Under the pieces are notes generated by a model. It searched no databases. It worked only from the letters and a program-made list of their open reading frames with translations, and was not told the origin of the DNA. The position numbers and the translations under genes are program-made. Shown piece after piece: positions 19,874 through 32,749 of a stretch of DNA of 40,325 nt. Numbering within the stretch: the stretch's first letter is position 1; each line of letters opens with the position of its first letter. Origin of the DNA: an uncultured Sphingomonas sp. (GTDB lineage Bacteria; Pseudomonadota; Alphaproteobacteria; Sphingomonadales; Sphingomonadaceae); assembly GCA_902806275.1 (NCBI GenBank), contig CADCVY010000106.1:1-40325 (forward strand). The letters run 5' to 3'.

Positions 19874-20887
19874 TCAGTAGGCGCGGGCGATAGCGAACTC
19901 GACGGCTTCGGTCAGCGCCGCCTTGGCCTTGCTGGCGGGGAACATGGCGAGCGCATCGATGGCGCGCCGGCCGTACTGGCGCGCATGCTCGATGGTGTCG
20001 GACAAAGCGCCGGTGTCGCGCATCAGCTGGATGGCGTGGGCAAGATCGTCGTCGGAGACGCGTTCCCCGGACATTGCCGCGCGCCAGAAATCGCGGTCGC
20101 TGTCGCTGCCGTGGGCGTAAGCCAGGATCACGGGCAAGGTCATCTTGCCGTCGCGGAAATCGTCTCCGACGCCCTTGCCCATCGTCTGGCTGTCCGACGC
20201 GTAGTCGATCGCATCGTCGGCGAGCTGAAAGGCGATCCCGAGGTTGCGGCCGTAGGTCTCCAAGGCCAGTTCAGCGTCCTCGCTCGCTTCGGCCACGACC
20301 GGCGACACCCGGCAGGCTGCGGCGAACAGCGCCGCCGTCTTGGCGCGGATGATGGTCAGATATTGCTCCTCGCCGGTTTCCACGCGGCGCTGCGCGGTCA
20401 GCTGTTCGACCTCGCCCTCGGCGATCACGGCCGACGCATGGCTGAGGATCCTGAGTACGCGCAAGCTCCCGTCCTCGACCATCAGCTCGAATGCTCTGGA
20501 GAACAGGAAATCGCCGACCAGGACACTGGCGGGGTTGCCCCAGATGAGGTTGGCAGTGCGCTTGCCGCGGCGCGTGCCCGAGCCGTCGACCACATCGTCA
20601 TGGAGCAGGGTCGCGGTGTGGATGAATTCGACAGCGGCGGCCAGCTTGTAGTGGCGCGTGCCAGGATAGCCGAGCAGCCTGGCACAAGCGATCGTCAGCA
20701 TCGGCCGCATCCGCTTGCCGCCACCGGCAATCAGGTGTCCCGCAAGCTCGGGAATCAGCGCCACTTTGCTCTGCATGCGGTCGAGGATGGCGGCGTTGAC
20801 CCCGTTCATGTCGGAGGCGACGAGCGAGATTAGAGCCTCGAGAGACGGCTCGCGCTTGGGGCCGAGCGGATGGATGCTAGCGGTCAC
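19874..20887 (-). CDS. polyprenyl synthetase family protein (octaprenyl/decaprenyl diphosphate synthase type)
   Basis: GGGKRMRPML, LLHDDVVDGSGTRRGKRTANLIWGN, FQLADDAIDY motifs. Confidence 0.92.
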   Translation of the reverse strand: MTASIHPLGPKREPSLEALISLVASDMNGVNAAILDRMQSKVALIPELAGHLIAGGGKRMRPMLTIACARLLGYPGTRHYKLAAAVEFIHTATLLHDDVVDGSGTRRGKRTANLIWGNPASVLVGDFLFSRAFELMVEDGSLRVLRILSHASAVIAEGEVEQLTAQRRVETGEEQYLTIIRAKTAALFAAACRVSPVVAEASEDAELALETYGRNLGIAFQLADDAIDYASDSQTMGKGVGDDFRDGKMTLPVILAYAHGSDSDRDFWRAAMSGERVSDDDLAHAIQLMRDTGALSDTIEHARQYGRRAIDALAMFPASKAKAALTEAVEFAIARAY

Positions 20888-20960
20888 GGCGCTCCTCTAG
20901 CTGGAGCGCGCTTTCTTTCCTAGCCGATCACTACCCGGCTTGGTTGCCGGTGCGGCGTAG

Positions 20961-21066
20961 AGCTTGGCTGTAGCGGGGCCCACCGGTCGAGCAGCTTGCC
21001 CTTGACGTTGAACTAGCGGCCCTGGTCGTCGAAGCCGTGCCCGATGGTGGCGCCGATGTAGCTCAC
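20961..21066 (-). pseudogene. remnant of M13 family metallopeptidase
   Basis: Minus-strand translation [29 protein letters not shown] resembles the M13 HGFDDQG region, with an internal TAG and loss of the HExxH spacer. Confidence 0.65.
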
Positions 21067-21284
21067 GAGGGACCTACGTCCACATCACCGATCCGGGCGC
21101 GATTTTGACAACAACAGCTGGAGACGGCGATGTCCCCCTGACCGCGTCGCCGCACGTCGCTGGAGGTGGTGGGCATAGTCGGCAGAAGAACGAACCGGGA
21201 ACTCATTGCCGGACCGGAATGGATGATCCGTCGGTGCGCGAAGCTGGTTTGAGCTTGCTCCTTCACCGCGCTAGTGCCGAGTTG

Positions 21285-23534
21285 GTGACCGACAAGCCGA
21301 ACAAAGCAGACTGGCAAGCGCTCGCCGAGAAGGAAAGCCGCGGGAAGGTTTTGGAGCGCGAAACGCCCGAGGGCATTCAGCTAAAGACCGTCTACGGCCC
21401 CGAAGACGCTGCCGGGATCGACAGCGGCTACCCCGGCCTGCCGCCCTACACGCGCGGGCCCTATGCGACGATGTACGCGGGGCGCCCGTGGACCATCCGC
21501 CAGTACGCCGGCTTCTCGACCGCCGAGGAGTCTAACGCTTTCTACCGCCGCAACCTCGCCGCCGGCCAGAAGGGGCTCAGCGTCGCCTTCGACCTCGCCA
21601 CTCACCGCGGCTACGACAGCGACAATCCGCGCGTGGCCGGCGATGTCGGGATGGCCGGCGTGGCGATCGACAGCGTCGAGGACATGAAATTGCTGTTCGA
21701 CGGCATCCCGCTCGGCGAGATGAGCGTCAGCATGACCATGAACGGCGCGGTGCTGCCGATCATGGCCTTCTTCATCGTCGCGGGAGAAGAGCAAGGGGTT
21801 GACCGCGCGCAGCTCACCGGCACGATTCAGAACGACATCCTGAAAGAGTTCGCGGTCCGCAACACCTACATCTACCCGCCCGAGCCGAGCATGCGGATCG
21901 TCGCCGACATCATCGCCTTTTGCGCAGCGGAGATGCCCAAGTTCAACTCGATCTCGATCAGCGGCTACCACATGCACGAGGCGGGCGCGACGGCGGTTCA
22001 GGAGCTCGCCTACACGCTCGCGGACGGCATGGAGTATGTTCGCGCGGCCCAAGCCAAAGGGCTCGATATTGATGCCTTTGCGCCGCGGCTGAGCTTTTTC
22101 TTCGGCATCGGCATGAACCTCTTCATGGAAGTGGCCAAGCTGCGCGCCGCGCGCACGCTCTGGGCGCGGATCATGACCGAACTCGGGGCGAAGTCGGAGA
22201 AATCGAAGCTGCTGCGCACGCACTGCCAGACGAGCGGCGTGTCGCTGACCGAGCAGGACCCGTACAACAACATCGTGCGAACCACGGTCGAAGCGCTCGC
22301 CGCGGTGCTCGGCGGCACGCAGTCGCTGCACACCAACAGCTTCGACGAAGCGATTGCGCTGCCGACCGACTTCAGCGCGCGGATCGCGCGCAACACGCAA
22401 CTGATCCTTGCGGAGGAAAGCGGGGTGACGGCGGTCGCCGATCCTCTTGGCGGAAGCTGGTATGTCGAGGCGCTGACCCGCGAATTGGACGAGAAAGCGT
22501 CGGCGCTGATCGCCGAAGTCGAGGCGCATGGCGGAATGACCAAGGCCGTTGCCGAAGGCCTCCCCAAGCAGCGGATCGAAGAAGCGGCCGCCGCGCGCCA
22601 GGCCAAGGTGGATACCGGCGAAACGGTGATCGTCGGCGTCAACCGCTACCGGCTGGAGAACGAGGCCGAGCTCGACATCCTCGCGGTGGACAACGCCAAG
22701 GTCCGCGCCGGGCAGATTGCACGGTTGGACCAGGTGCGGTCCGGACGGGACGAGGCGAAGGTGCGCGCGACGCTGGATGCACTGGAGCAAGGTGCCAAAA
22801 ATGCCTCCCGGAACGGGGAGGGGGACCATGCGCACCATGGTGGCGGGGGCGCGCCACGCGCAGAACTCCCTTCGTCAGTTGCTGGCGCAACTGCCACCTC
22901 CCCGTCCCGGGGAGGATCGAATTTGTTGGCCGTTGCCATCGAATGCGCCCGCGCCCGCGCTACGCTTGGCGAAATTTCCGACGCGCTGGAACGCGCGTTT
23001 GGCCGCTACGGCACCAGGCCCGAACCAGTACGCGGCATCTACGGCAAGGCTCGCGACGACACCCGTTGGCGCGCCGCGGTTGAAGGTACCCGTTCCGTGG
23101 AACAGCGCCTCGGCCGCAAGCCCCGCATCATGGTCGCCAAGATGGGCCAGGACGGCCACGACCGCGGCGCCAACCTCGTTGCGTCCGCCTTCGCCGACTT
23201 GGGCTTCGAAGTGGTCTCCGGCCCCCTGTTCCAGACGCCGCGCGAGACCGCCGAGATGGCGGTCGAAAGCGCAGTCGATGTGGTCGGCGCGTCGTCGCTC
23301 GCTGCGGGCCACCGCACGCTCATCCCCGAGCTGATCGACACGCTGCGCGACATGGACCGCGCCGACATCAAGGTCGTCGCCGGCGGCGTCATCCCCGCGC
23401 AGGATTACGCGCTGCTGCGGCAGGCCGGCGTGGCCGCGATCTTTGGCCCGGGCACCAACCTCGCCGACGCCGCCGACGAAGTGCTGCGCCTCCTGGGGCA
23501 CAACCGCCCGCCGCTCGACGAGGCGGCAGAGTGA
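21285..23534 (+). CDS. scpA: methylmalonyl-CoA mutase (fused catalytic and B12-binding domains)
   Basis: [62 protein letters not shown]-terminal [19 protein letters not shown]12 motif. GTG start ([10 protein letters not shown]) preferred over the ORF-track start at 21105. Confidence 0.95.
22803..22922. repeat. palindromic repeat element inserted in frame in scpA (120 bp)
   Basis: Hairpins cctcccggaacggggagg and cctccccgtcccggggagg at the two ends; bounded by AAT at 22800-22802 and AAT at 22920-22922. Resembles the intergenic element at 31074-31197. Confidence 0.8.
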
Positions 23535-23749
23535 AGGCAGCCTTATTCCTAGCGGCATCCGCGGCGTACGCGGTCGTCGCTACTTCATCTATTTGGCCGT
23601 CGTCTTGCAACGGATTGGGTCCGGACAGTCCGATCCCTTGCAACTATGCTGCAGACCAGCAGTCGTTCAATTTTGCAGTGGGCGCCGTTGTCTTCTACGC
23701 CATTTCAAGCGTCCGTTTCTGGTGGCCTCGCAAGCATTCAAAAGGCTGA
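23531..23749 (+). CDS. small hypothetical membrane protein
   Basis: 72 aa, two hydrophobic segments; start overlaps the scpA stop and ORF ends 1 nt before pccA. Weak. Confidence 0.45.
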
Positions 23750-23750
23750 G

Positions 23751-25895
23751 ATGTTCAAGAAAATCCTGATCGCTAACCGCGGGGAAATCGCCTGCCGGGT
23801 GATCCGCACGGCGCGGCGCATGGGCATCAAGACGGTTGCGGTCTATTCGGACGCTGACGCGCGCGCGCCGCATGTGCGGATGGCGGATGAAAGCGTGCGG
23901 CTGGGGCCGCCTCCTGCGAGCGAAAGCTACCTGAAGGCCGAGCTGATCATCGATGCTTGCAAGGCGACTGGCGCGGAGGCGGTGCACCCTGGCTACGGCT
24001 TCCTGTCCGAGCGCGCTAGCTTCGTCGAAGCTCTCGCCGCCGAGAACATCGCCTTCATCGGCCCGCCGCCGAACGCCATCGCGGCGATGGGCGACAAGAT
24101 TGAATCGAAGAAGCTGGCGCGCGACGCCGGCGTCAACATCGTGCCCGGCTGGCTCGACGACATCGCGACGACCGATGAAGCGGTGAAGATCGCCGGCGAC
24201 ATCGGCTACCCGGTGATGATGAAAGCCTCGGCCGGCGGCGGCGGGAAGGGCATGCGCCTCGCCTGGTCGGAGCAGGACGTGCGCGAAGGCTTCGAGGCGA
24301 CCAAGCGCGAGGGGCTGTCGAGCTTCGGCGACGACCGCGTGTTCATCGAGAAGTTCGTCGAGCAGCCGCGCCACATCGAGATCCAGCTGCTCGGCGACCG
24401 CCACGGTAACATCCTCTACCTCAACGAACGCGAATGCTCGATCCAGCGCCGCCACCAGAAGGTGGTCGAGGAAGCGCCGTCGCCGTTCGTCACGCCCGAG
24501 ATGCGCCGCGCGATGGGCGAGCAGGCGGTCGCGCTGGCGCGGGCCGTCGGCTATTATTCGGCAGGCACGGTCGAGCTGATCGTCGCCGGCAACGACCCGA
24601 CCGGCAAAAGCTTCTACTTTCTCGAGATGAACACGCGGCTGCAGGTCGAGCATCCTGTGACGGAAGAGATCACCGGTCTCGATCTCGTCGAGCAGATGAT
24701 CCGCGTCGCCGCGGGCGAGAAGCTGGCGTTCACGCAGGCGGACATCGGCATCGACGGCTGGGCGGTCGAGACGCGGGTCTATGCCGAAGACCCGTACCGT
24801 GGTTTCCTGCCGAGCACCGGGCGGTTGGTGCGGTATGAGCCGCCAGTGCAAATCGCGTGCGCTAGCGCGCAATCCGAAGAAAGTTTTGGCACGCGGAGAC
24901 GCGGAGACGCGGAGGATGTCGGCGGTTCTTCCTCTCCGCGTCTCCGCGTGTCCGCGCGAACGGATCAGGATAGCCGCTCGCGCGGCGGTGCGGAGGTTCG
25001 CACCCGCATTGACGGCGGCGTGACCGAGGGCGGCGAGATCAGCATGTTCTACGACCCGATGATCGCTAAACTGATCACCTGGGCGCCGACCCGTGAAGCG
25101 GCGATCGACGCGCAGGTCGCGGCGCTCGACGGGTTCGTCATCGACGGCATCAGCGACAATGTCGATTTCCTGTCCGCGCTGATGCAGCACCCGCGTTTCC
25201 GCAAGGGCGACCTCGCGACCGACTTCATCGCCGACGAATATTCGGAAGGGTTCGAAGGCGCGCCGGCAGAGCCGCAGCTGATCGAGGGACTGGCGGCGAT
25301 CGCGGCCATGATCGGCCTCGAGAGTGATGCGCGCGCAGGGCAGGTCAGTGGCCAGCTCAACGGCACGCTCCCGACCTCGCCCGAGCGGCTGGTGCGCATT
25401 GCCGGCCGCGACGTGCATGTGGCGTTCGACGGCTGCGATGCCGTGCTGCTTGCGAATATCGATGGAGACGACCGGCCGCCGATCGAGCTGCAGGGCAGCT
25501 GGACGCCTGGCCAGCGGCTGTTCGCCGGAGTGCTGGACGGCAAGCCGATCAAGGTTCAGGTCCAGCGCGTCGGCCGCGGCTGGGAGCTGACGACGCGCGG
25601 CGCGCGGCACAAGGTGCAGGTGCTGCCGCCGCACGTCGCCGAGCTGTCGCGGCACATGATCGAGAAAGTGCCACCCGACCTGTCACGCCTGCTGCTCGCG
25701 CCGATGCCGGGACTGCTGACGCGGCTCGATGTCGCGGTCGGCGACAAGGTCGAGGCGGGACAGGCGGTCGCGGTGATGGAAGCGATGAAGATGGAAAACA
25801 TCCTCCGCGCAACCAAGGCGGCGACGGTGAAAGCGACGACGGCGAAGGCTGGCGACAGTGTTGCCGTTGATCAGGTGATTGTGGAGTTTGAGTAG
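23751..25895 (+). CDS. pccA: acetyl/propionyl-CoA carboxylase alpha subunit (biotin carboxylase + BCCP)
   Basis: MFKKILIANRGEIACRVIRTARRMGI, MKASAGGGGKGMRLAWSE, RECSIQRRHQKVVEEAPSP, biotin site VMEAMKMEN. True start 23751. Confidence 0.95.
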   Translation: MFKKILIANRGEIACRVIRTARRMGIKTVAVYSDADARAPHVRMADESVRLGPPPASESYLKAELIIDACKATGAEAVHPGYGFLSERASFVEALAAENIAFIGPPPNAIAAMGDKIESKKLARDAGVNIVPGWLDDIATTDEAVKIAGDIGYPVMMKASAGGGGKGMRLAWSEQDVREGFEATKREGLSSFGDDRVFIEKFVEQPRHIEIQLLGDRHGNILYLNERECSIQRRHQKVVEEAPSPFVTPEMRRAMGEQAVALARAVGYYSAGTVELIVAGNDPTGKSFYFLEMNTRLQVEHPVTEEITGLDLVEQMIRVAAGEKLAFTQADIGIDGWAVETRVYAEDPYRGFLPSTGRLVRYEPPVQIACASAQSEESFGTRRRGDAEDVGGSSSPRLRVSARTDQDSRSRGGAEVRTRIDGGVTEGGEISMFYDPMIAKLITWAPTREAAIDAQVAALDGFVIDGISDNVDFLSALMQHPRFRKGDLATDFIADEYSEGFEGAPAEPQLIEGLAAIAAMIGLESDARAGQVSGQLNGTLPTSPERLVRIAGRDVHVAFDGCDAVLLANIDGDDRPPIELQGSWTPGQRLFAGVLDGKPIKVQVQRVGRGWELTTRGARHKVQVLPPHVAELSRHMIEKVPPDLSRLLLAPMPGLLTRLDVAVGDKVEAGQAVAVMEAMKMENILRATKAATVKATTAKAGDSVAVDQVIVEFE
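24883..24960. repeat. palindromic element inserted in frame in pccA
   Basis: Perfect 17-bp inverted repeat cacgcggagacgcggag (24890-24906) / ctccgcgtctccgcgtg (24934-24950). Encodes GTRRRGDAEDVGGSSSPRLRVSAR within the biotin-carboxylase region. Outer boundaries uncertain. Confidence 0.75.
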
Positions 25896-26143
25896 CTAAT
25901 TATGTGGTGAAATTGGCAATTCTGGCCGTCGTCTCGGCTGTTCAGTCGTCACCGTGATCCCGGTTCGAACGCACGCAGTTAAATATGATCAATACAGAGA
26001 ACCGCGGCCTTAGACCTAGACGTTCAGCGCACTGTTTCGGAGCATGTACCTAACCCCGACCGCGCTTGCGCTCATTGCCGTGATCCTCGTTCGCTCTTGC
26101 AGCCGGAGTTTGGATCATCCGCGCGGGACGGTAGATCCGAACC

Positions 26144-27823
26144 TCAACGGTTCCTCAACTCCACCCGCCTGAGCTTGCCGGTAGCAGTCTTCGGCAGCGC
26201 GTCGACGAATTCAATGTCGCGCGGGTATTTGTAGGGGGCGATCTGGTCTTTGACGAACGCCTTGAGCTTGTCCATCAGCTCCTCGCCGCGCTCGGCGAAG
26301 CTCGCCAGCACCACGAACGCCTTCACCTTCTGGCCGCGCTCCTCGCACGGCACGCCAATCACGGCGCATTCGGCGACGGCGGGGTGTGACAGCAGGGCAT
26401 TCTCCACTTCCGGCGCGCCGATGTTGTAGCCGGAGCTGACGATCATGTCGTCGCTGCGCGCGAGGTACCAGTAATAGCCGTCGGCGTCGCGGCGGTAGGT
26501 GTCGCCGGTGAGGTTCCAGCCGTCGCTCACGTAATCGCGCTGGCGCTCGTCGTCGAGGTAGCGGCAGCCGGTCGGGCCCTTGACCGCGAGGCGGCCGGTG
26601 CCCTCGACCAACGGTTGGTTGGCGGGGTCGAGCACTGCCGCCGTATAGCCAGGCACCGCCTTGCCGGTGGCGCCCGGGCGGATGTCATCGCCACTCGCGG
26701 AAATGAAGATGTGCATCATCTCGGTTGCGCCGATGCCGTCGGTGATGGCGATGCCGGTGCGATCCTTCCACGCGCGCCAGGTCGCCTCGGGCAGGTGTTC
26801 GCCGGCGGACAGGCAACAGCAGAGGGTTCTGATTGCGTCCCCTAAGCCCGTTCGTGCTGCGCTTGTCGAAGCACTGCCCTTGTTTTCTTCGTCCGACGAG
26901 AAAGGCAGCCCTTCGACAAGCTCAGGGCGAACGGGTTGGGGTTCGGTTGCAAGCATCGCCTTGTAGGCGGTCGGTGCAGTGCCGAGGTGGGTGACGCCGA
27001 ACCTGGCGATGGCCTCCAACATTGTCGGCGGGCTCGGCTGCTCGACCGTGCAGCAAGCCGCGCCGGCGCGGAGCGGAAACAGGAAACCGGCGCCGAGCCC
27101 GAAGGTGAAGGCGAGCGGCGCGCTGGTCATTGCGATGTCGCCCGGCTGCATGCCGATCAGGTGCCTGGCAAAGCTGTCGCATGGCGCCAAGACGTCGCGG
27201 TGGAAGTGAACGCAGCCCTTGGGCACGCCGGTGGTGCCGCTGGTGAAAGCGATCAGCGCCGGCTCGTCGCGGCCGGTGTCGACCGATGCGAGTGGCTGCA
27301 AGTCCGCAGTGCGCGTCTCGAGTTCGCCCCGGCCGTAGTCGCCGTCATACTTGATCACATGCTTGATCAGATGCGCCTGCTCGGCCGCCTCGCGGAAGTC
27401 GCCGATGAAGCGGCTGTCGACGACCGCGTGGCTGATGTGCGCACGCTCGATGACCGTCGCGATCTCGCCGGGGCGCAGCAGTGGCATGGTCGCGATGACA
27501 ACGCCGCCAGCCTTCAAAACGCCGAGCCAAACGGCGAACATCGTGTAGGTGTTCGGGCCGCGTAGAAGCACGCGGTTGCCGGGAATGAGTCCATGTTCGT
27601 CAACGAGCAGCCGTGCGATGCGGCCGCTAAAGTCGTCCAGATCGGCATAGGTCCAGCGGCCATGCGCGTTGACTAATGCAAGCGCGTCCGGCGCGCCGCG
27701 TTTGAGCAATTCCGCCGCAGCGTTGAGCCGCTCGGGATATTGCAGTTCGGGCAGGTCGAAGCGGAACTCGGGCAGCAGCTCCGGCGGCGGCAGCCGGTCG
27801 CGGACGAATGAGTCGTAGGTCAC
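26144..27823 (-). CDS. AMP-binding acyl/benzoate (2-aminobenzoate)-CoA ligase family protein
   Basis: LIAFTSGTTGVPKGCVHFHRD, GDTYRRDADGYYWYLARSDDMIVSSGYNIGAPEVENALLSHPAV, LPKTATGKLRRVELR. Confidence 0.9.
   Translation of the reverse strand: MTYDSFVRDRLPPPELLPEFRFDLPELQYPERLNAAAELLKRGAPDALALVNAHGRWTYADLDDFSGRIARLLVDEHGLIPGNRVLLRGPNTYTMFAVWLGVLKAGGVVIATMPLLRPGEIATVIERAHISHAVVDSRFIGDFREAAEQAHLIKHVIKYDGDYGRGELETRTADLQPLASVDTGRDEPALIAFTSGTTGVPKGCVHFHRDVLAPCDSFARHLIGMQPGDIAMTSAPLAFTFGLGAGFLFPLRAGAACCTVEQPSPPTMLEAIARFGVTHLGTAPTAYKAMLATEPQPVRPELVEGLPFSSDEENKGSASTSAARTGLGDAIRTLCCCLSAGEHLPEATWRAWKDRTGIAITDGIGATEMMHIFISASGDDIRPGATGKAVPGYTAAVLDPANQPLVEGTGRLAVKGPTGCRYLDDERQRDYVSDGWNLTGDTYRRDADGYYWYLARSDDMIVSSGYNIGAPEVENALLSHPAVAECAVIGVPCEERGQKVKAFVVLASFAERGEELMDKLKAFVKDQIAPYKYPRDIEFVDALPKTATGKLRRVELRNR
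26848..26935. repeat. palindromic repeat ('PVRPELVEG' type) inserted in frame in the CoA ligase
   Basis: Arms cccgttcgtgctgcgcttgtcgaagcactgcc (26848-26879) and ggcagcccttcgacaagctcagggcgaacggg (26904-26935): 27/32 complementary positions. Minus strand encodes PVRPELVEGLPFSSDEENKGSASTSAARTG. Confidence 0.85.
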
Positions 27824-28212
27824 TCTTCCACCACCGCAGTCGCTTCGATTTCGACCAACGCAGCGGGCTCAACCAAGGACTTCACTTCGACCAGGGCCAT
27901 TGCCGGATAATTGCGGCCCATGACCTCGCGCCACGTCGCGCCCATGTCGCCGAGCGATGCGCGGTAGGAAGCCATGTCGATGACGTAGACCGTTAGGCGC
28001 ACGATATGTGCGGGCCCGGCGCCGTCCTCGGCCAGGACGAGAAGGACATTGCGCAGTGCTTGGGCGAATTGCTCGACCAGATTGGGACTCCGGAACTGCT
28101 GCTGGTCGTCCCACCCGATCACCCCCGCCGTGAAGATGGTGCGCCCACGCGCGCTGATGCCGTTGGCGTAGCCGCTCGGCCGCGCCCATCCGGATGGCTG
28201 CAGCACCTTCAT
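27820..28212 (-). CDS. RidA family protein
   Basis: MKVLQPSGWARPSGYANGISARGRTIFTAGVIGWD ... QALRNVLLVLAEDGAGPAHIVRLTVYV ... YPAMALVEVKSLVEPAALVEIEATAV. Confidence 0.88.
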   Translation of the reverse strand: MKVLQPSGWARPSGYANGISARGRTIFTAGVIGWDDQQQFRSPNLVEQFAQALRNVLLVLAEDGAGPAHIVRLTVYVIDMASYRASLGDMGATWREVMGRNYPAMALVEVKSLVEPAALVEIEATAVVEE

Positions 28213-28309
28213 CAACCCTCTCCCAACACCTTGCCCGACAGCCATCCACCTCCAAAGAACAGAAGCGGCGCGAGCAGGCAGCCGCAGCCGATCTGGCTGA
28301 GCAAGTCCC

Positions 28310-29452
28310 TCAAGAATTCGGCTTCAAGAGGTCGCGGGCGATAATCTGCCGCTGCACTTCGCTGGCGCCCTCGTAGATTCGCAAGCTGCGGATCTCGCGG
28401 TACAGTTCCTCGACTTTAACCCCCTTGGTCACGCCCGCGCCCCCGTGCAGCTGCACCGCGGCGTCGACTACCGCCTGCGCGCTTTCGGTCGCGTGCAGCT
28501 TGGCCATGGCGGCCGCACGGCGGTTGCTGATGCCGCCGATGTCCTGCTGCCAGGCGGCGCGGTAGACCAGCAGCGCGGAGGCATCGACCGCCAGCGCCAT
28601 GTCGGCAAGCTTGGCCTGCGTCACCGCATTGTCGGACAGCGTGCCGCTGCCGAGCCGCCGGGCTTGCGCGAAACTGACGGCGTCACCCAGGGCGCGCCGG
28701 GCAAAGCCGAGCGCCGCAGCGCCCACCGTTACCCGGAACAAGTTCAGCGTCTCCATGGCGATGCGAAAACCTTCGCCGGGTTCGCCGACAATGGCTTGGG
28801 CGGGCAGGCGCACATTGTCGTAGCCGATGCGCCCTAGCGGATGCGGCGCGATGATGTCGATGCGCTCGTTCACCGTGACTAAGTCTGCCGGAACAATGAA
28901 CGCCGACAGCCCGCGCGAGCCTTCGCCTTCGCCTGTCCGCGCGAACGTCACATAGAAGTCGGCGATGCCCCCGTTGGAAATGTAGTTCTTCTCGCCGACC
29001 AGCACCCATTCGTTGCCGTCGCGCATGGCGGAGGTCTGCATGTTGGCGGCGTCCGACCCGGAACCGGGTTCGGTCATCGCGAAGGCGGCAATGGCTTCCC
29101 CGCTGGCGACGCGTGGGAGCCACTCGCGTTTCTGCTCGATGGTGCCGAACAGGCTGATCGGGCCCGAGCCGAGGCCCTGCATGGCGAACGCGAAGTCGGC
29201 GAGGCCGCTGTGGTAAGCAAGCGTCTCGCGCGCGATGGCCAGGCTGCGAACGTCGGGGCGCGTGTCGGCGCTGGCGACGCAAAGCTTGAGGAAGCCCGCG
29301 GCTCCAAGTTCCCGGACCAGAGTCCGGCAACGGTCGTCCAATTCGCCCTCGCTCGCCGGCATCGACTCACACCAGCGCGCGAGGTCGTCGGCGAGCTTGC
29401 GGTGCGTGGGTTCGAAGAACGGCCAGGAGAGGAAGGTGCGATCCGCCATCAA
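28310..29452 (-). CDS. acyl-CoA dehydrogenase
   Basis: [80 protein letters not shown]. Confidence 0.93.
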
Positions 29453-30258
29453 TTGCCTTCAAACACCGGGGTTCGCCTGACGGCGAACGCCTTATAAGCG
29501 CGGTGAAAATCCTTCGTTTGCATGCAACGCGCCTGCGCGCGCGCCTCCGCCTCGATCGCGTCGTCGATCGACAGGTGCCATTCGGCGTCGAGCTGCTTCT
29601 TGGTCAAGGCGTGGGCGAGGCTCGGCCCGCTGGCGAGCTGCGCGGCGAGCCTCGCGGCGTCGCCGTGCACGTCGTCGACGATGCGGTTGAAAAACCCCCA
29701 CGCCAGACCTTCGTCCGCGCTCATCGAACGCCCGGTGTAGAGCAGCTCGGCCGCGCGACCGTGGCCGACGATCCGCGGCAGGATGGCGCAGGCGCCCATG
29801 TCGGCGCCGGACAGGCCCACGCGGGCGAACAGGAAGGCGGTCTTCGCGCCCGGAGTTGCGAGCCGCAAGTCGCTGGCCATAGCGATGATCGCGCCGGCGC
29901 CCGCGCATACGCCATCCACGGCGGCGATGATCGGCTGCGGGCAGGCGCGCATGGCGCGGACCAGATCGCCGGTCATGCGGGTGAAGGCGAGCAGCCCGTC
30001 TTCGTCCATCTGCGTCAACGGCCCGATGATCTCGTGGACGTCGCCGCCCGAGCAGAAGTTGCCGCCGGCGCCGGCCACCACGATCGCCTTGACCGCCGGT
30101 GCCTCGTTGAGCGCCCAGAACGTGCTTCGCAGCTCCTGGTAGCTGTCGAAGGTCAGCGGGTTCTTCCGCTCCGGCCGGTCGAGGGTGATCGTCCCCACGC
30201 CATTATTGTAGGCCCACAAGAAATGGGTCGGCGCAAATGTTGCCGGATCGAAGATCAC
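29449..30258 (-). CDS. enoyl-CoA hydratase family protein
   Basis: [95 protein letters not shown] start at 30258 overlaps the SDR stop. Confidence 0.9.
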
Positions 30259-31034
30259 GCGGCGGTGCCGCCGTCGATTGTCACCGCGGCCCCGTTGACG
30301 TCGCGGCTCTGCGGCAGGCACAGGGTCAGGATCATGGTTGCGATCGCATCGGGGTGCACCAGCCGCCCACTGGCGTTCATGTTGGTGATCGCGCCGCGCG
30401 CCTGCTCTTCGCTGCGGCCGGTGATCTCGGATACCCGTGCCACCGACTGGTCGGTCATCGGTGTGTCGACGTAGCCGGGGCAGACCGCGTTCACGGTGAG
30501 GTTGGTCTTGGCATATTCCGCGGCCAGGCTGCGCATCAGTCCAAGCAAACCGTGCTTGGAAGCCGCATAATGCGCCGCATACGGAACGCCGCGCAGAGAT
30601 GCGACCGAGGCCACGAACACCAGCCGCCCGCTATCGCTCTTCAGCAGGTCTCCGATGGCCGCCTGCGTGCAATCGAAAGCTGCGGTCAGATTGGTGGCGA
30701 TGATCCGGTTCCAGCCGTCGCGAGTCATCTTGTGGAAAGGCGCGCTTTCGGCGATGCCGGCGTTGACGATCAGCAGGTCGACGGGGCCATTGGCGGTGCG
30801 CGCTTCGTCGAAGGCGCGGGCGACCTGCTCCGGCTCGGTCACGTCGCATTGGACCACGGTCCCGCCGATCGGCTCGGCGGTCTTCTGCAGAGGCTCCAAT
30901 CGCCGCCCGCTGAGGCTGATCTTCGACCCCGCACCATGAAGTTGCGCTGCGGCGGCAGCGCCGATGCCGGTGCCGCCGCCGGTGATCAGGGCATGGCGCC
31001 CCGCGAGCCAGTTTCCCTGCATGGCGTGAAGCAT
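30255..31034 (-). CDS. SDR family NAD(P)-dependent oxidoreductase
   Basis: [61 protein letters not shown]. Confidence 0.92.
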
Positions 31035-31073
31035 TGGCGGAAGGGAAAAGGCGTGGCAATGGCGACCGCAATT

Positions 31074-31197
31074 GTCCTCCCCGCGATTTTGCGGGGAGGG
31101 GGACCAACGAAGCTGGTGGAGGGGTTATTCGTCGGTTGCTAAGAACCCCTCCACCGCCTTCGGCGGTCCCCCTCCCCGGCAAAGGCCGGGGAGGATG
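31074..31197. repeat. intergenic palindromic repeat element (CCTCCCCG...CGGGGAGG type)
   Basis: Three nested hairpins: cctccccgcgattttgcggggagg, gtggaggggtt/aacccctccac, cctccccggcaaaggccggggagg. Same architecture as the scpA insert. Confidence 0.85.
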
Positions 31198-31211
31198 AAG
31201 TAGGAGAACAC

Positions 31212-32324
<1,113 letters not shown>

Positions 32325-32377
32325 TCGCGCCGGCGCAGCGCGTCTAAGTTGCCATTCGCAACTAACAGGAGGGCTCC

Positions 32378-32749
32378 TTGTTCAGTCACGTGATGGTCGG
32401 ATCGAACGACGTCGATCGCGCAAAATCCTTTTACGACCGCCTGTTCGAAAAGGAGGGCAGGGCCGACGACAAGGGTCGGGTCGCTTACCGGCGCAATGGC
32501 TCGGTATTCATGATCTCACGCCCGATCGACGACCAAGCCGCGTGCCACGCCAACGGCGGCACCATCGGCTTCAACTTCGACACGCCCGAGGAAGTCGACG
32601 CATGGCATCAGCGCGGCGTTGAAGCCGGCGGGCAGGCGATCGAGGACCCGCCTGGCTACCGCGAGAACGCCTTTGGCAAGCTTTACCTCGCCTACCTGCG
32701 CGACCCGGATGGCAACAAGCTGTGCGGGCTGCACCGGCCGCAGCAGTAA
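32378..32749 (+). CDS. VOC family protein (glyoxalase-like)
   Basis: FSHVMVGSNDVDRAKSFYDRLFEKEG ... YLAYLRDPDGNKLCGLHRP; TTG start. Confidence 0.9.
   Translation: MFSHVMVGSNDVDRAKSFYDRLFEKEGRADDKGRVAYRRNGSVFMISRPIDDQAACHANGGTIGFNFDTPEEVDAWHQRGVEAGGQAIEDPPGYRENAFGKLYLAYLRDPDGNKLCGLHRPQQ

Follow-up and report, generated by a model that had tools for sequence, protein, structure and literature searches.

Palindromic repeats of different families lie in frame within the same protein loops across sphingomonad genomes

The window analysed here is a whole stretch of 40,325 nucleotides (contig CADCVY010000106.1) from an uncultured Sphingomonas sp., whose assembly comprises 1.62 Mb in 114 contigs and is 72% complete. 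Three neighbouring genes were studied: scpA for methylmalonyl-CoA mutase (21105..23534, plus strand; an open reading frame with MM_CoA_mutase and B12-binding domain matches), whose real start probably lies further downstream, near 21285; pccA for the propionyl-CoA carboxylase alpha subunit (23751..25895, plus strand); and a gene for an AMP-dependent CoA ligase (26144..27823, minus strand). Among named relatives, Sphingomonas segetis was the closest that a search with scpA found (82%). The first-pass annotation had proposed that each gene contains an in-frame inverted-repeat element of a different family, with intact domains downstream. Inverted repeats were indeed present and in frame in all three genes and ranked among the strongest local inverted repeats of the window, and Pfam and solved-structure matches showed intact domains on both sides of each insert. 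A search of positions 20500-32500 against Rfam gave no match at the gathering score.

The insert in scpA is a B-family palindrome (CCTCCCCG) at about 22800..22919 on the plus strand, with arms at 22807-22833/22885-22911, and encodes a peptide of about 40 residues. The ligase gene carries an A-family palindrome (PVRPELVEG...STSAART) at 26839..26944 on the minus strand, with core arms within 26847-26935 (26847-26881/26901-26935, 35 nt, 83%). As a correction to the first-pass annotation, the insert in pccA (24849..24995, plus strand) is composite, with a CGCGGAGA hairpin nested within a decayed HPRESGDP-type palindrome. The nested hairpin, which represents a third family, C (CACGCGGAGACGCGGAG; peptide about TRRRGDAEDVGGSSSPRLRVSAR), occupies 24890..24958 on the plus strand, with arms at 24892-24914/24934-24956 (96% complementarity) and perfect 18-nt arms at 24890-24907/24933-24950. 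The nested arrangement is better kept in G005/L116 than in the window. Compared with dinucleotide shuffles, the DNA folding z-scores were -5.2 for scpA, -5.1 for pccA, and -7.3 for the ligase gene.

In alignments with orthologues from sphingomonads and other alphaproteobacteria, the majority of sequences lacked the inserts, as the first-pass annotation had anticipated. The scpA product contains a 41-residue stretch where most orthologues have about 4 residues, pccA has 59 codons instead of 15–16, and the ligase gene has 45 codons instead of 14. All three inserts are predicted to lie in loops. In the AlphaFold model of the pccA product, the sole long low-confidence segment (residues 369–412, between strands 359–363 and 417–422 of the biotin carboxylase C domain) corresponds to the insert, and in the ligase model the insert corresponds to the longest low-confidence segment (residues 293–324), between two helices. 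The scpA insert is placed between two helices where the mutase domain ends. In an alignment with the human mutase, which has only a few residues there, it falls downstream of the catalytic domain and ahead of the B12 domain.

Different low-complexity inserts were found at the same places in scpA and pccA of S. segetis and L039, and in pccA of L032. Because these relatives carried differing inserts at the same places, we then compared the pccA neighbourhoods of same-genus genomes. Sixty genomes were searched for this neighbourhood, and same-site alignments covered about 50. Among the same-genus loci, the pccA loop following LPSTGRLVRYxPP contained 15 different inserts, including HPRESGDP...SRLRGNDE, the same with the nested hairpin (the window and G005), VIARSEATKQS...LLRSARND, PVRPEPVEG...STSSARTA, several CCCTCCC/SPLEGEG types, and a CTCTGCG version in G054. 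At the scpA loop, seven loci had the B family and four had the A family, read in other frames; the ligase loop carried the A family in four loci, one of them in reverse order. An insert at the scpA site was also visible in the alignment of L165. On a tree built without the insert columns, we counted at least 14 state changes for pccA, at least nine for scpA, and at least three for the ligase gene, with losses included and families labelled by eye. Across the genus, these sites hold either unrelated peptides or no insert. This pattern points to tolerance rather than selection, so that of the two options left by the first-pass annotation, tolerated or selected insertion, only the former was supported. 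Long inserts were also seen at the scpA hot loop of L016 and L030, which are from Erythrobacter-group genomes. The L016 insert is a non-palindromic stretch of 36 residues (folding z -0.2), which indicates that the scpA loop accepts other peptides and is tolerant in general. In L153 (G034), the pccA match stopped near residue 289 in a short open frame, possibly through a frameshift that has nothing to do with the insert site.

Copies of the elements elsewhere in the window's own genome, sampled by pattern, were found for two of the three families. The A family occurs at about 14 places and the B family forms nine hairpins; no second copy of the pccA (C) family was detected in the 72%-complete assembly, and this family is multicopy in five relatives. 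The A-family copies are mostly intergenic: about ten places are not clearly within genes, and four copies lie in frame in the genes for the ligase, valS, sufC, and the linker of a 2-oxoacid dehydrogenase E2 subunit. This distribution bears out the suggestion that normally intergenic palindromic repeats have been inserted in frame. Within the window, an intergenic double palindrome of the CCTCCCC type, related to the scpA insert, lies at 31075..31195 (no strand assigned) between a minus-strand gene on one side and a plus-strand gene on the other.

The genes valS and sufC are normally essential, and their inserts, along with that in E2, speak against the notion that acyl-CoA or other metabolic genes are special targets. 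The valS insert was lacking in the other genomes read at that position, except for G036, which carries a different family there, and G054, which retains a short remnant. A CCCTCCC-type insert (LPLPGGEGGASAPEGEG...) was also observed at a second, different valS site in G019 (L306). For sufC, nearly all genomes gave one strong match, and the gene is single-copy in the window's genome. Palindromic inserts of about four kinds occupied the sufC loop in six surveyed genomes: the A family (the window's genome and G025), an A variant (G015), CCCTCCC types (G012 and G005), and a CGTCATCACGGGCTTGAGCC type (G003). In the E2 linkers of L287–L290 (G008, G009, G025, and G007), we observed decayed PVRPE...STSLGT-like stretches, which suggests old insertions drifting to ordinary linker sequence. 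At the loci of the three original genes, their own families (130 genes) contained 32 inserts, against none for 16 other families (238 genes); this comparison takes genomes as independent and is phylogenetically confounded.

No stop codon was found across the site in any of 71 pccA, 56 scpA, and 27 ligase loci, all 71 pccA loci being read through; the loci, some overlapping or duplicate (partly duplicates for pccA), were read in one frame, which partly guarantees the lack of frameshifts, and frameshifted copies could have been missed because reading required one open frame. The inserts at the sufC site were likewise free of stops. Full-length inserts, in a set comprising all but L030 scpA, L141 pccA, and L156 pccA, folded with z-scores between -2.2 and -9.6 relative to dinucleotide shuffles. 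Nearly all were far more stable than their shuffles, and a few were just weakly so (about -2.2 to -2.7). Two empty sufC sites had z-scores of -0.2 and -0.6.

The supply of elements differed among genomes. A-family arms were patchy, numbering a score or more in some genomes and none in many complete ones. The A family occupied one of the three sites in six of nine A-rich genomes and in one of about 44 others (Fisher p 2.4e-5, with genomes taken as independent, kinship ignored, and phylogeny thus a confounder). The variant at the site also agreed with the host genome, as for GCTCACC in G009 and CTCTGCG in G054. Since family supply tracks the host genome and the insert-bearing gene families are fixed, supply appears to come from local amplification and place to be set by the gene. 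Mobilisation by RAYT was not supported: Y1_Tnp (PF01797) was found in three of 61 genomes, and neither in G000 nor in G057, although A-family inserts occupy two sites in the latter.

The presence and frame of the inserts, their absence from orthologues, same-site recurrence, family supply, and predicted loop position are established here, and they are probably best explained by non-autonomous REP/MITE-like elements that insert broadly and survive only where a copy is in frame within a permissive protein loop. Short palindromic repeats of this kind (about 60–130 bp), belonging to several families, would amplify in individual sphingomonad genomes and insert widely, presumably by transposition. 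Most gene-borne copies would be purged, and those that are in frame, stop-free, and in a flexible, solvent-exposed loop would be kept. Since the frame is retained, a kept copy would be translated as a disordered peptide of 20–50 residues, leaving the enzyme fold intact. The same loops of pccA, scpA, CoA ligase, sufC, valS, and the E2 linker may be hit repeatedly by whichever family is active, because few loops would be tolerant enough. Such loops would sometimes receive one element inside another and sometimes be emptied again through deletion.

An unlikely alternative is selection of the inserts for some function at the site. Coding hairpins of any family would then be recruited at fixed protein positions, with the hairpin being useful at a fold boundary (for example, in ribosome pausing or mRNA tuning) or the flexible peptide serving as a linker; we consider such recruitment improbable as well. 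Unlike families have just a strong hairpin and the site in common, and three neighbouring genes were hit while 16 neighbouring families were not, which would fit this reading. However, most genomes lack an insert, neither sequence, length, nor orientation is conserved, one scpA-site insert is non-palindromic, and sites decay and empty. If recruitment were nonetheless true, palindromic repeats would repeatedly supply essential enzymes with regulated insertions.

Slightly less probable still is a sequence-specific DNA target or hot spot, which would explain same-site re-use without protein tolerance. The insertions are bunched within a few codons of one another and one element is nested in another, as a hot spot would predict, but the exact insertion nucleotide varies inside each loop, the flanks differ between the hit genes, and unrelated families occupy the same loop. 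It is very unlikely that RNA excision or ribosome bypassing eliminates the inserts before or in the course of protein synthesis, so that the protein lacks them. Known ribosome-bypass elements are strong hairpins inside conserved enzymes, which the inserts resemble; yet no insert read at the sites contained a stop, and keeping the frame would be needless for a bypassed segment. An assembly artefact, which a metagenome-derived genome in many contigs might invite, is ruled out because inserts of the same kinds occupy these sites in genomes that are near-complete or a single contig (G057, G009, G049, G017, and G015) and in the S. segetis YJ09 assembly, and chance inverted repeats are practically excluded by folding z-scores far from chance.

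Under the favoured reading, that of broad insertion and survival in permissive loops, an oddity known mainly from Rickettsia becomes a natural experiment replicated within a single genus, in which loops of pccA, scpA, CoA ligase, sufC, and valS have been independently invaded by different repeats. These loops form a naturally made map of the positions at which foreign peptides are tolerated in proteins. It is now testable how selfish repeats turn into protein sequence, which loops accept insertions, and whether an acquired peptide or hairpin has ever gained a function.

The Rickettsia palindromic elements (RPEs; Ogata 2000/2002) are a fair analogue, as had been suggested. As described in PMC10969869 and PMC3733652, RPEs comprise several palindrome families that lie in frame in unrelated genes as well as in intergenic regions. 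Our inserts share these features and a presumably preserved fold, being in-frame palindromes in otherwise intact protein genes that are missing from orthologues. They differ in that the hosts are free-living sphingomonads, that the A, B, and C sequences, judged by appearance, belong to families other than the RPEs, and that unrelated families recur at one loop. MITEs and ERIC/RU elements are also small, non-autonomous, inverted-repeat, intergenic elements that are at times fused in frame with genes (PMC10969869, PMC2759123). Our elements resemble them in small size, inverted arms, presumed non-autonomy, and intergenic plus some in-gene copies; no parental transposase or target duplication was identified for them.

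CGTC/GTAG-tagged REPs lie within open reading frames of many bacteria, and CGTC families are common in alphaproteobacteria (Di Nocera 2013; PMC3733652). S. alaskensis and E. litoralis were reported to have REPs within tRNA synthetase genes, and at roughly one site of recB, X. campestris and X. oryzae carry REPs that differ from each other (PMC3733652). The HPRESGDP (CGTCATCCCCGC) and VIARSEAT (CGTCATTGCGAG) palindromes begin with CGTCAT and look CGTC-like by eye, whereas A, B, and C, also judged by eye, have no clear CGTC (or TGTC/CCTC) tag with a short stem-loop; moreover, few of the genomes here encode RAYT. In the open-licence literature, we found no paper matching the insert peptide strings and none relevant on sphingomonads, and an earlier description elsewhere is possible. 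In-gene REPs are already established, both as RPEs and as CGTC/GTAG REPs (PMC3733652). What appears to be new is the scale and convergence, with about five families recurring at fixed loops of at least five genes within one free-living genus.
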